From contig NZ_QXFO01000024.1 of NCBI RefSeq assembly GCF_003584105.1, positions 62,001 to 126,000 of the forward strand: 64,000 nt of DNA, in the 5' to 3' direction. The notes beneath the pieces were generated by a model. The model was given only the letters and a program-made list of their open reading frames with translations. It did no database searches and was not told the DNA's origin. The DNA comes from Flagellimonas taeanensis (GTDB lineage: Bacteria; Bacteroidota; Bacteroidia; Flavobacteriales; Flavobacteriaceae). Both the position numbers and the translations under genes were made by a program. Shown piece after piece: positions 15,454 to 59,589 of this stretch. Each line of letters opens with the position of its first letter. Position 1 is the first letter of the stretch.

Positions 15454-15474
15454 CTTCGACTACGCTCAGCTACC
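15454..15474 (-). repeat. Dispersed palindromic repeat, copy 1
   Basis: Minus-strand copy of the element with core TGAGCGTAGTCGAA, starting directly after the stop codon of the metX fusion. Confidence 0.8.
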
Positions 15475-15524
15475 TTGTTTAGTCTATTTGGATGGGTATA
15501 GTCGAGATGGTATATGAATTACGG

Positions 15525-15551
15525 TTGGAACGGTGGCTGAGCGTAGTCGAA
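15525..15551 (+). repeat. Dispersed palindromic repeat, copy 2
   Basis: Direct copy of 27 bases, identical to 15569-15595 (period 44). Core GGCTGAGCGTAGTCGAA. Confidence 0.85.
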
Positions 15552-15568
15552 ATATAGAAAGAATATGA

Positions 15569-15600
15569 TTGGAACGGTGGCTGAGCGTAGTCGAAGCCAC
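15569..15600 (+). repeat. Dispersed palindromic repeat, copy 3; left inverted arm of the GIY-YIG unit
   Basis: Bases 15576-15600 are the exact reverse complement of 15926-15950, a perfect 25-bp inverted repeat on either side of the GIY-YIG gene. The arm is itself partly palindromic (GTGGCT...AGCCAC). Confidence 0.92.
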
Positions 15601-15609
15601 AAACTAAAG

Positions 15610-15924
15610 ATGAAAGGTTACATGTACATACTTCAATGTTCGGATGGAAGCTATTATACAGGAAGTACCATAGACTTGGAGAACCGTATCAATGAGCATC
15701 AAGATGGTAGGGGGGCAAACCATACCAAGAAAAGACTGCCCGTGGAGTTGATGTATGTTGAGGAATACCTAAGCATTGCATCGGCTTTTGAGAGGGAGAA
15801 ACAGATTCAGGGTTGGTCAAGAGCAAAGAAGGAAGCACTCATCCAAGGAGAATTTCAAACTCTGCCCTATTTGGCCGAGTGTAAGAACCATACAAATTAT
15901 AGATATTTTAAAGAGGTTAAATGA
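15610..15924 (+). CDS. GIY-YIG nuclease family protein
   Basis: A 104-residue single-domain protein. It has the YMYILQCSDGSYYTGSTID version of the GIY-YIG motif, then LENRINEHQDG, and the YVEEYLSIASAFEREKQIQGW helix with the expected metal-binding Glu and basic residues. Similar to small UvrC-N-like/YhbQ nucleases. A longer frame opens at 15565, but its first residues (VAERSRSHK) are only the translated repeat, so ATG 15610 is chosen. Flanked by perfect 25-bp inverted repeats. It interrupts the methionine gene run between the metX fusion and the second sulfhydrylase. Cleavage specificity unknown. Confidence 0.88.
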   Translation: MKGYMYILQCSDGSYYTGSTIDLENRINEHQDGRGANHTKKRLPVELMYVEEYLSIASAFEREKQIQGWSRAKKEALIQGEFQTLPYLAECKNHTNYRYFKEVK

Positions 15925-15925
15925 A

Positions 15926-15950
15926 GTGGCTTCGACTACGCTCAGCCACC
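15926..15950 (-). repeat. Dispersed palindromic repeat, copy 4; right inverted arm of the GIY-YIG unit
   Basis: Exact reverse complement of 15576-15600, beginning one base after the GIY-YIG stop codon and ending 14 bases before the next start. Confidence 0.92.
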
Positions 15951-23883: not shown

Positions 23884-23902
23884 TGAGCGAAGTCGACGGG
23901 AC
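23884..23902 (+). repeat. Dispersed repeat variant
   Basis: CCTGAGCGAAGTCGACGGGA, a diverged copy of the TGAGCGTAGTCGAA element, in the cobA to reductase gap. Confidence 0.6.
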
Positions 23903-28679: not shown

Positions 28680-31367
28680 ATGGCTGAAACAAGAGCTTTG
28701 AAATTATCGGGTCTGGAGCCCTTGGTGATTACTCCCGAGAGTAATTTCATCAATGTAGGAGAGCGTACCAATGTTGCTGGTTCCAAACGATTTTTGAGGC
28801 TGATCAAAGAGGAAAAGTTTGATGAGGCCTTGGATGTCGCACGAGATCAAGTGGAAGGAGGTGCCCAGATCATCGATGTGAATATGGATGATGGGTTGAT
28901 AGATGGAAAAGAAGCTATGGTCAGGTTCTTGAACCTGATCGTTTCCGAGCCCGATATTGCCCGTGTGCCCATCATGATCGATAGCTCCAAATGGGAAATC
29001 ATTGAGGCGGGCCTTCAAGTGGTGCAGGGTAAATGTGTGGTGAATTCCATCAGCTTGAAAGAAGGGGAGGAGAGCTTTATACGACAAGCGAAATTGATCA
29101 AGCGCTATGGTGCTGCGGTCATCGTGATGGCATTTGACGAAGTGGGGCAGGCGGACAACTATGAGCGAAGGATTGAAATTGCCAAGCGCTCCTATGATAT
29201 TTTGGTGGGCAAAGTAAAGTTCGCCCCCGAGGACATCATCTTCGATCTCAATATATTTCCAGTGGCCACCGGAATGGAGGAACACAGGCGTAACGCCCTT
29301 GATTTCATAGAGGCCACCCGTTGGGTAAAGGAGAATCTCCCCCATTGCAGCGTCAGTGGAGGGGTCAGCAATGTTTCCTTTTCCTTTCGGGGCAACGACC
29401 CCGTACGCGAGGCCATCAATTCTGCATTTCTGTTCCATGCCATCAAAGCTGGAATGAATATGGGCATTGTGAACCCGACCATGTTAGAGGTGTACGATGA
29501 TATTCCCAAGGATTTATTGGAGCATGTGGAAGATGTGCTGCTCGACAGAAGGGACGATGCCACTGAAAGATTGCTGGAATTTGCAGAGACCGTTGTAGGG
29601 ACCGCAAAAGAAAGCAAGGTCGATCTGTCTTGGAGACAAGAACCCCTTCAGGACCGAATCACCCGTGCGCTGGTCAAGGGGATCGATCAATATATCATCG
29701 AAGATGTGGAAGAGGCCCGTCAACAAGCTGAAAGACCGTTGGAGGTCATCGAGGGGAATCTGATGGCAGGAATGAATGTGGTCGGTGACCTTTTTGGAAG
29801 CGGGAAAATGTTCTTGCCCCAAGTGGTCAAATCCGCTCGTGTTATGAAAAAGGCAGTAGCCTACCTAACTCCCTATATTGAAGCATCCAAAGAAAAGAAT
29901 GCCAAAGCTGCTGGTAAAATATTGATGGCTACGGTAAAAGGAGATGTGCACGATATTGGAAAGAACATTGTGAGCGTAGTGCTTGCCTGCAACAATTATC
30001 AGATTGTGGATCTTGGCGTAATGGTACCCCCGGAAAAGATCATCAACAAGGCCAAGGAAGAGCAAGTAGATATTATCGGTCTAAGCGGATTGATCACGCC
30101 ATCCCTGGACGAAATGGTGTTTTTGGCCAAGGAGATGGAGCGTCAAAACTTCGAGGTACCCCTCTTGATCGGGGGTGCAACGACGAGCAAGGCGCATACC
30201 GCAGTGAAGATCGACCCACAATACAGTCACTCCGTGGTCCATGTAAACGATGCATCCCGTGCAGTGACCGTGGTAGGAGACCTATTGCAGGACAAGACAT
30301 CGGAAGGGTACAAGAAGGCCATCAAATTGGACTATGAAAGTTTTCGGGATAAATTTTTGAGCCGTTCCAAACACAAAGAATATTTGACATTGGCTGAGGC
30401 TCGGAAGAACAAATTCCAGATTGAATGGAACCCTGCCGACATCAAAAAGCCGAACCATTTGGGAATTCAGGTTTGGGAAGATGTTGATCTGACCCGATTG
30501 GAGGAATTCATAGATTGGTCCCCCTTTTTTAGAAGTTGGGACCTGCACGGCAAATACCCCGATATTTTAACCGATGAGGTCGTGGGGGAACAGGCCAAAG
30601 AGCTTTTCAAGGATGCCCGAGTGCTTTTGAAAAAGGTGTTGGATGAAAAATTGTTGAAGGGCAAGGCCATCTTCGGACTGTTTCCTGCCAATCAAATTGA
30701 GGACGATGATATTGAAGTTGTCAGTTCGAGCGCAGTCGAGGACGACACTACAAAAACCAACATTTTTAGGACCCTTCGCCAACAATTGAAAAAGCGTGAG
30801 GGGGTTCCCAATATCGCCTTGGCAGATTTTATCGCGCCTAAAGAATCAGGCATCCAAGATTATATCGGCTGTTTTTGTGTGAGTACCGGCTTTGGGACGC
30901 AAGAACTGGCCGCTGAATTTGAAAGGAACCATGATGATTACAATTCCATCATGATCAAGGCTTTGGCGGATAGGTTGGCAGAAGCCTTTGCGGAATACCT
31001 GCACAAAGAAGTCCGCACCAAATACTGGGGCTATGCCGTTGACGAGGATTTAGGGAACGATGACCTGATCAAAGAAAAGTACCGTGGCATCCGTCCGGCG
31101 CCGGGTTATCCCGCCTGCCCTGACCACTTGGAAAAATTGGCGATTTGGGATTTGTTGGGCGTGGAAGAAAAAATAGGCGTAAAATTGACCGATAGTTTGG
31201 CCATGTGGCCTGCGGCCAGTGTGAGCGGCTACTATTTTGCACACCCGGAGGCAAAGTATTTTGGACTGGGAAAAATAGAACAGGACCAAGTAAAGGATTT
31301 TGCAGAACGAAAGCATATAAAACTGGAGGAAGCCCAAAAATGGCTGGCTCCCAACATAGTTGATTAA
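28680..31367 (+). CDS. metH: Methionine synthase, folate/B12/activation modules (MetH C-terminal part)
   Basis: An 895-residue protein holding the rest of MetH: pterin-binding domain ([14 protein letters not shown], then [11 protein letters not shown]), cobalamin cap, B12 domain with GDVHDIGKN (the lower-ligand His in DxHxxG), [24 protein letters not shown], and the SAM-binding reactivation domain with [12 protein letters not shown] near the C-terminus. It transfers methyl from methyl-tetrahydrofolate to homocysteine held by the separate N-terminal subunit. An in-frame copy of the dispersed repeat (30719-30741) encodes the linker SSSAVED between the B12 and reactivation domains. Confidence 0.96.
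30719..30741 (+). repeat. Dispersed palindromic repeat inside the metH coding sequence
   Basis: Core TCGAGCGCAGTCGAG preceded by TGTCAGT, matching the intergenic variant at 18679. It is in frame and gives an SSSAVED linker. The only copy in the window that lies in a gene. Confidence 0.75.
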
Positions 31368-55522: not shown

Positions 55523-55536
55523 TGAGCGTAGTCGAA
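55523..55536 (+). repeat. Dispersed palindromic repeat core copy
   Basis: TGAGCGTAGTCGAA, identical to the core of the copies around the GIY-YIG gene, here between the two heptamer arrays. Confidence 0.8.
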
Positions 55537-59442: not shown

Positions 59443-59589
59443 AAAGGTCTAAAAAGTGTCATTCTGAATGAAATGAAGAATCTTATTAAAGTTCAACTCT
59501 TCGATAATTGGTTGAACGAGATTCTTCGACTGTCCCTTCGACTGCGCTCAGGGTGACAGCTCAAAATGACACTTTTTAGACCTTTTTTT
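59443..59589. repeat. Composite hairpin repeat acting as terminator between convergent genes
   Basis: The outer arms 59443-59463 and 59565-59585 are perfect 21-bp inverted repeats (AAAGGTCTAAAAAGTGTCAT...). Nested inside are GAAGAATCT and AGATTCTTC, and a copy of the dispersed element (CTTCGACTGCGCTCAGGGTGAC). A T run follows at 59583-59589. Confidence 0.88.

Follow-up and report, generated by a model that had tools for sequence, protein, structure and literature searches.

A single-domain GIY-YIG nuclease of Flagellimonas taeanensis and a hairpin repeat that is probably its cognate element

A small GIY-YIG nuclease gene of Flagellimonas taeanensis lies between two inverted hairpin repeats, and hairpins of the same general form accompany related nuclease genes. 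The association of hairpin and nuclease is not due to chance. Comparison of the sequences makes it very probable that the hairpin is recognized by the neighbouring nuclease, because this is the only reading we found that explains two matches described below, one between the protein tail and the hairpin loop and the other between the protein body and a tag at the foot of the hairpin. It is likely that the nuclease substrate is the hairpin in its DNA form. We favour the view that a hairpin-specific nuclease and its cognate repeat work here like a REP/RAYT pair with a different enzyme, and judging from the anatomy of the locus we lean slightly towards the nuclease being what drives the dispersal of the hairpins. 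REP-like palindromes are common in bacteria. A short, apparently specificity-setting tail on a nuclease of 104 residues would give the ownerless among such repeats an owner, and would make repeat spread testable in harmless marine bacteria. The enzyme might also be a compact, perhaps reprogrammable nuclease for single-strand hairpins.

The window is a stretch of 64,000 nucleotides (assembly GCF_003584105.1, contig NZ_QXFO01000024.1, positions 62,001 to 126,000 of the forward strand). It contains the following features, numbered from the first letter of the window.

15454-15474, minus strand: upstream inverted copy with an exact core (15455-15468); stem mostly broken, 1 paired base
15532-15551, plus strand: upstream direct copy, GGTGGC-TGAGCGTAGTCGAA-atata (exact core 15538-15551), without a matching 3' arm
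15576-15600, plus strand: left hairpin, facing the gene, GGTGGC-TGAGCGTAGTCGAA-GCCAC; 5'-tag G at 15576
15610-15924, plus strand: single-domain GIY-YIG nuclease gene, 104 aa, with a UPF0213-like body; stop codon TGA at 15922-15924
15926-15950, minus strand: right hairpin, exact reverse complement of the left one, starting one base past the stop codon
18686-18699, plus strand: variant core CGAGCGCAGTCGAG, three mismatches; T-A pair at the core base replaced by C-G
23884-23897, plus strand: diverged core TGAGCGAAGTCGAC, two mismatches
30727-30740, plus strand: variant core CGAGCGCAGTCGAG, three mismatches; T-A pair at the core base replaced by C-G
55523-55536, plus strand: dispersed exact core TGAGCGTAGTCGAA; stem ttac/gtaa
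59537-59550, minus strand: dispersed core TGAGCGCAGTCGAA, one mismatch; TGTC tag, of the type seen around the group B genes (see below)

The two arms around the gene are 25 nt long, 100% complementary and 325 nt apart, with the GIY-YIG frame alone between them. An earlier note on this DNA had described exact 25-bp inverted arms enclosing just this gene, a stop codon one base from the right arm and two extra copies upstream. Coordinates and complementarity are confirmed (stop at 15922-15924, arm from 15926), as are the two extra copies, with exact cores at 15455-15468 on the minus strand and 15538-15551 on the plus strand. The distant copies that it listed are all real, but their quality is mixed: 55523 is exact, 59537 has one mismatch, 23884 two, and 18686 and 30727 three. 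The stem of the 15454-15474 copy is intact (TAGC/GCTA) in several orthologues. With up to three mismatches allowed, TGAGCGTAGTCGAA has 13 matches in the window versus a mean of 2.17 in shuffled sequences, and 0 of 100 shuffles reach 13. Chance clustering of the cores is ruled out by these shuffles together with a reversed-pattern control and the density near related genes, both given below. Near 59537 (C23:121537), and also at C23:27006, the core is enclosed in a composite palindrome of ~150 bp, whose ends resemble GTCTAAAAAGTGTCATT; in relatives the corresponding site holds a short hairpin that resembles a terminator.

The encoded protein matches PF01541 of Pfam (E 6.6e-18), and its closest solved structures in a structural search are 1zg2 and 1ywl, both UPF0213. 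Residues Y6, Y16, G18, R26 and E63 are invariant among 50 aligned GIY-YIG proteins, taken from the 80 best related ones. The C-terminal tail, ECKNHTNYRYF, belongs to a type that we call CxN. The AlphaFold2 model (mean pLDDT 88.7) has high confidence over the domain and low confidence over the last ~15 residues (57 for residues 91-100, 53 for residues 101-104). This low confidence is compatible with a tail that becomes ordered on binding. An in-frame ATG lies further upstream at 15565, and the frame read from there crosses the left hairpin. The C-termini of the nucleases often extend into the adjacent hairpin, which adds FDSAQ, FGSAQ or STSST (L066, L068, L103, L105, L113 and other loci). As named from their reading frames, the neighbours of the unit are an aspartokinase/homoserine dehydrogenase fusion gene and a sulfhydrylase-type gene. 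The genome has 7 GIY-YIG matches in total, and only the gene of the window is adjoined by several cores; the gene at C23:12058 has one core ~100 bp away and that at C27:183356 has one ~1 kb away.

Throughout the genome (4.09 Mb, 28 contigs) the pattern TGAGCGNAGTCGAA has 70 copies, 36 forward and 34 reverse, and the reversed control pattern has 0. Distinct surroundings were found for 65 of the 70 cores. The other 5 are from C4, a contig that duplicates a portion of C23 and thereby inflates some copy counts in the assembly. Three 3-kb pieces of C4 are letter-identical in C23, at offsets of 117,650, 117,650 and 117,887 bases. The core is 14 bases long, and its flanking arms vary from copy to copy yet pair with each other: at least 3 paired stem bases adjoin the core in 56 of the 65 distinct copies, versus a mean of 5.9 and a maximum of 15 in controls with re-paired flanks. 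There are 17 different 3-base arms among the distinct copies.

From sequence comparison, four parts of the repeat can be told apart: the 5' tag, the stem, whose sequence is free, the GAG/CGA box, and the loop, which has a pyrimidine and one inner pair that is conserved. The core has the form TGAG-loop-CGAA within the stem, and some copies have C-G instead of T-A at the core base. GAG opposite CGA could presumably form a tandem G.A mismatch, and we take it that a C-GNA-G loop sets the variable base at its tip. In DNA folding, one strand forms a stem-loop in each of the three loop classes introduced below (z from -2.8 to -3.2). The folding parameters do not predict the inner loop pair of classes I and III, and the short-stem type with a GTC tag is no more stable than its shuffles (z 0.09).

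A search with one genome per species gave at least 573 stretches related to the nuclease locus, and the best 80 of them were analyzed. In these 80 best of at least 573 loci, the exact core occurs at 205 copies per 100 kb within 200 bp of the genes versus 0.9 at 5-10 kb, and the loci that have no exact core mostly carry relatives of it. For the general form of the hairpin (GAG and CGA around the loop, with a stem of at least 4), copies lie within 400 bp of the gene at 74 of these 80 loci, 279 in number or 455 per 100 kb; more than 2 kb from the gene the same contigs have 66 copies, or 7.1 per 100 kb, and the near density is ~64-fold higher. Thirteen altered control boxes gave just 0-6 near-gene copies in the same best 80 loci. 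No general-form hairpin lies within 400 bp at L072, L076, L081, L094, L106 and L117, of which L072 and L076 are close to contig ends. A search for TGAG/CGAA hairpins with a stem of at least 3 was positive at 72 of the 80 best loci. The host records are mostly Bacteroidota, with some named Calditrichota, Kuenenia, Fibrobacter, Desulfobacterales and Aggregatibacter; many of the records are metagenome bins, and therefore single placements may be wrong. The pairing of nuclease and repeat proposed in the earlier note is thus borne out by an enrichment that extends over records from several named phyla.

The hairpins closest to a gene more often point towards it than away (upstream 39 plus and 12 minus, downstream 41 minus and 22 plus). 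This orientation, and the position of hairpins immediately in front of the start codon and behind the stop codon, would also fit a role of the hairpins as RNA. They would then be structures of the untranslated regions that regulate the nuclease gene or end its transcription, and the nuclease would act on its own mRNA. The covariation of the stems fits this equally, since it cannot separate RNA from DNA. We nevertheless regard an RNA role as very improbable. Among the 44 genes that have a hairpin within 150 bp upstream and another within 150 bp downstream, only 23 show the inward-facing pair. Dispersed copies do not favour either strand (36 forward, 34 reverse), and some copies are inside coding genes, for example leuS, where they are read in different frames.

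Near the genes, the loops of TGAG/CGAA hairpins with a stem of at least 3 have 5 bases in 161 cases and 6 bases in 108. The first base is complementary to base 4 (or 5) in 158 of the 161 five-base loops and in 106 of the 108 six-base loops, and the final base is a pyrimidine in 158 and 105, respectively. The inner pair varies between C-G, G-C and T-A, which amounts to covariation across classes. We distinguish class I (CGNAGY, 102 hairpins), class II (G..CY, 66), class III (C..GY, 85) and class IV (T..AY, 5), with 11 others.

To judge from the sequences, the loop class of the hairpin correlates with the type of C-terminal tail that the protein has. By the first rule that we formulated, a CxN tail is accompanied by class I at 32 of 33 hairpin-bearing loci (4 more CxN loci have no hairpin), an AYRD tail by class II at 16 of 16, and an NYT-like tail by class III at 13 of 16 (1 more has no hairpin). 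Overall, 61 of 65 loci agree in the set from which the rule was derived. Ten loci without a recognized tail comprise five of class III, one of class IV and four that have no hairpin. The first NYT rule was too loose and caught NSS (L039), NST (the frameshifted L060), ASS (L108) and, in the held-out set, SHS (L313); the three NYT misfits of the first rule are due to such false motif matches. With a strict motif the agreement in the first set becomes 13 of 13 for NYT and class III, and 61 of 62 overall. The sole misfit is L044, with a CxN tail and class II hairpins.

As the tail types were defined on the first 80 loci, they were tested on 41 others (L262-L273, L294-L322). No held-out protein is identical to a first-set protein over the first 82 residues, and held-out species may overlap the first set. 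The first rule agrees at 11 of 11 held-out loci (7 CxN with class I, 2 AYRD with II, 2 NYT with III) and the strict rule at 10 of 10 (7, 2 and 1, respectively), which are few for classes II and III. Six held-out CxN proteins were scored as having no hairpin by the TGAG/CGAA search. Five of the held-out loci first scored empty (L271, L272, L319, L320, L321) do bear class I hairpins, and were missed because this search does not find CGAG/CGAG copies. Held-out proteins without a tail type have no hairpin in 18 of 24 cases by the first rule and in 18 of 25 by the strict rule; under the strict rule, proteins without a tail type and yet with hairpins number 9 of 13 in the first set and 7 of 25 in the held-out set. 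Tails of the KKKFQ, KKIWK or KKVFR type were seen without GAG/CGA-box hairpins nearby at L262 and L264-L270, all from the genus, and in part of L299-L304.

Both traits can shift together between close relatives. In Aquimarina, L062, L083 and L056 have AYRD tails and class II loops versus CxN tails and class I loops at L046, L049 and L052. In a tree of the first 82 residues (76 rows; the frameshifted L060 and the short L315 are excluded from the trees), the loop class changes 18 times and the tail type 20 times, and in the tree pairs compared the two never change in opposite directions. The tree is poorly resolved, and the 3 independent pairs on supported branches are too few for significance.

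The 5' tag varies in another way. Among hairpins with a stem of at least 4, G is at position -6 from TGAG in 94 of 97 class I, 57 of 60 class II and 55 of 56 class III copies, and C is opposite this position in only 53, 36 and 26 of them. Over the 80 loci (the best of at least 573), 244 of 262 elements have G at -6 and 4 have GTC. Different tags were found around a set of proteins ~45% identical to that of the window, which also have CxN tails and class I hairpins. This set, group B, consists of nine rows of one tree branch (support 87) and L293, represented by a 1-kb stretch surrounding the gene. At these 10 loci GTC occupies positions -7 to -5 in 23 of 29 elements and G is at -6 in 0 of 29, versus G at -6 in 44 of 46 and GTC in 0 for the 17 genus members of the window's own group. 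The tag thus follows the nuclease body, and the loop follows the tail. Of the 65 distinct copies in the genome of the window, 32 have GTC, 26 have G at -6 and 7 have neither; despite the 32 GTC-tagged copies, the three matches to the window protein in this genome include none of group-B strength.

TGTC is a variant of the tag of a class of REPs. According to PMC3733652, CGTC-tagged REPs form stems of 8-9 bp with loops of 4-5, and in many of them the tag reads TGTC instead of CGTC. They occur in Bacteroidetes among others (those of Neisseriae being dRS3), and they seem to have no dedicated transposase. Our copies may resemble them in the tag, as those near group B genes have (T)GTC at the 5' foot, with GTC in 32 of 65 copies of the own genome and 23 of 29 elements of group B. 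They differ from these REPs in having a free stem of ~3-5 bp, a mismatch box and a loop of 5-6. It is possible, and we put it forward tentatively, that a large superfamily of tagged palindromes, the TGTC/CGTC REPs included, has GIY-YIG nucleases as the dedicated enzymes that had been missing. These enzymes would use a two-part code in which the body reads the tag and an exchangeable tail of ~15 residues reads the loop, and a swap of tails would retarget the enzyme to another class of hairpins, which would then spread.

The mechanism that we propose is as follows. The target of the small site-specific nuclease would be the hairpin formed by one strand of the repeat. The nuclease body may read the 5' tag and cut beside it, and the tail may read the loop when the DNA is single-stranded, i.e., in replication, repair or DNA uptake. 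The nick would let the hairpin, and occasionally the whole gene unit, copy to new sites. The GIY-YIG enzyme would fill the part played by the HUH enzyme in the RAYT/REP pair. We infer the nicking and the spread from the anatomy of the repeat, the RAYT/REP model and the Ssn family, described next.

The Ssn family of Neisseria, reportedly described by Chenal et al. in Nature Communications in 2025, is said to consist of single-domain GIY-YIG nucleases with a cognate palindromic repeat, NTS, in hundreds of copies. Ssn reportedly cuts single strands that bear hairpins and so controls DNA uptake or recombination. By this description, the two systems share a single-domain GIY-YIG nuclease and a cognate repeat both around the gene and through the genome. 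The system described here probably differs from Ssn/NTS in its GAG/CGA box, a stem of free sequence, loop classes linked to the tail, a G(-6)/GTC tag and a gene that is often between facing hairpins. The statement of the earlier note that a nuclease/repeat system of such a kind is undescribed is therefore probably too strong, and what we claim as new is, probably, the variant features and not the kind of system itself. Our literature search, with most subscription papers outside its reach, found no title or abstract that describes a pairing of GIY-YIG and palindromic repeats. The term GIY-YIG is absent from the main text of the HuH survey PMC6006769, as far as it was covered, and the covered part of the GIY-YIG survey PMC1564403 has no word starting with "palindrom".

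The similarity to REP/RAYT systems (REPtrons) includes short tagged palindromes, often in inverted pairs, which flank a nuclease gene, are dispersed and have intragenic copies. The differences are the enzyme, which is GIY-YIG and not an HUH tyrosine nuclease, and the tag, which is G at -6 or GTC at -7 to -5 and not GTAG. The genome of the window has 0 matches to Y1_Tnp/RAYT (PF01797), and among the 60 genomes of the genus 10 have a Y1 match and 50 have none, including G044, G005, G035, G048 and G045, which hold 54-71 copies of the repeat. Mobilization by RAYT was rejected for the own genome on these 0 matches. More generally, a RAYT or IS200-type transposase elsewhere could mobilize the repeat, with the GIY-YIG gene as a passenger at insertion hot spots. 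This mode was proposed for GTAG-tagged REPs in PMC3733652, and one genome with 60 copies (G001) has one weak Y1 match. It is hardly credible here, as Y1_Tnp is absent from the own genome and from 50 of 60 genus genomes, some with 54-71 copies, and as it leaves the tail-loop and body-tag matching unexplained. The RAYT-like role that the earlier note assigned to the nuclease is supported indirectly, by the lack of Y1/RAYT in the own genome and in most repeat-rich relatives, by the 5' tag of the hairpin and by a unit that is present or absent between relatives.

Presence and absence were read at 30 junctions in the 60 genus genomes: 14 have the gene with hairpins, 2 the inverted hairpin pair alone, 11 a spacer of zero and 3 other spacers. 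The pairs without a gene (L133, L137) come from two species (genomes G005 and G045), the gene copy of L130 is broken by an internal stop, and the unit is absent at the junction in the close relatives G007 and G052 (91-93% identity). At G034:C44:125433-129984 a GIY-YIG unit is ~3 kb from the junction of the fusion gene and the sulfhydrylase gene, a possible relocation. A clean empty site for a lone dispersed hairpin was not seen between a 304-kb contig and three related contigs. Several lone-hairpin sites bear the hairpin in one species but not in another, and the exact inserted length is not fixed because the intergenic alignments show larger replacements.

The median number of core copies is 24.5 in the 18 genomes with the window's gene type (matches at E 1e-39 or better, counting broken and partial copies too) versus 8 in the 42 without it (p 8.7e-5, ignoring kinship). 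G005 and G045, both without this gene type, have 62 and 54 cores. The earlier note held that its proposal would be refuted if the repeats were equally abundant in strains without any such gene, and this is partly borne out: of the seven relatives without a protein match (E 1e-5), four hold 3, 8, 17 and 18 copies, and three hold none. Of 50 hairpins lying over 2 kb from the gene, 31 share the class of the gene located on their contig versus 16.7 expected (p 0.0019), a result based on the 21 of the 80 loci that have a class and distant hairpins, with 9 classless distant hairpins excluded.

Repeats that persist in genomes without the gene agree with the main rival to our reading. In this rival nuclease and hairpin are also a cognate pair, but the nuclease cuts hairpin-bearing single strands and so controls DNA uptake or recombination, and the repeats owe their spread to replication slippage, gene conversion or another enzyme. 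The evidence for recognition (density, tail-loop and body-tag matches) fits it equally. The palindromes found inside the hairpin loop at L220 and L229 could likewise arise by replication errors. We consider this explanation less likely, because the copy number and class of dispersed hairpins track the resident gene and because relatives differ at one locus in having or lacking a gene unit with hairpin ends. Spread driven by the nuclease is the reading that we slightly favour.

The loop palindromes just mentioned are at a site within leuS. Many of 30 leuS orthologues (L214-L243; L164:4450-7530) have in-frame hairpins at three positions, and the copies are read in different frames in different species. 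They are of no use for dating insertions, because occupied and empty alleles differ beyond the hairpin. At the first of the three positions in L220 and L229, and as we read the sequence also near 59537 of the window, a CCTGCCTGCCGGACAGGCAGG-like palindrome is between the core halves; such nested palindromes suggest that insertion is favoured at the tips of hairpins or the centres of palindromes. Palindromes within protein genes are also a feature of the Rickettsia palindromic elements, which are inserted in protein genes and for which we know of no linked nuclease. RPE-4 and RPE-6 are named in PMC3733652. Depending on the species, the same three positions of leuS hold varied palindromic elements, which encode the peptides AERSRS, SLSGVE, SSAVEK, QVQHD, LPAGQAG and PLEGGEGG.
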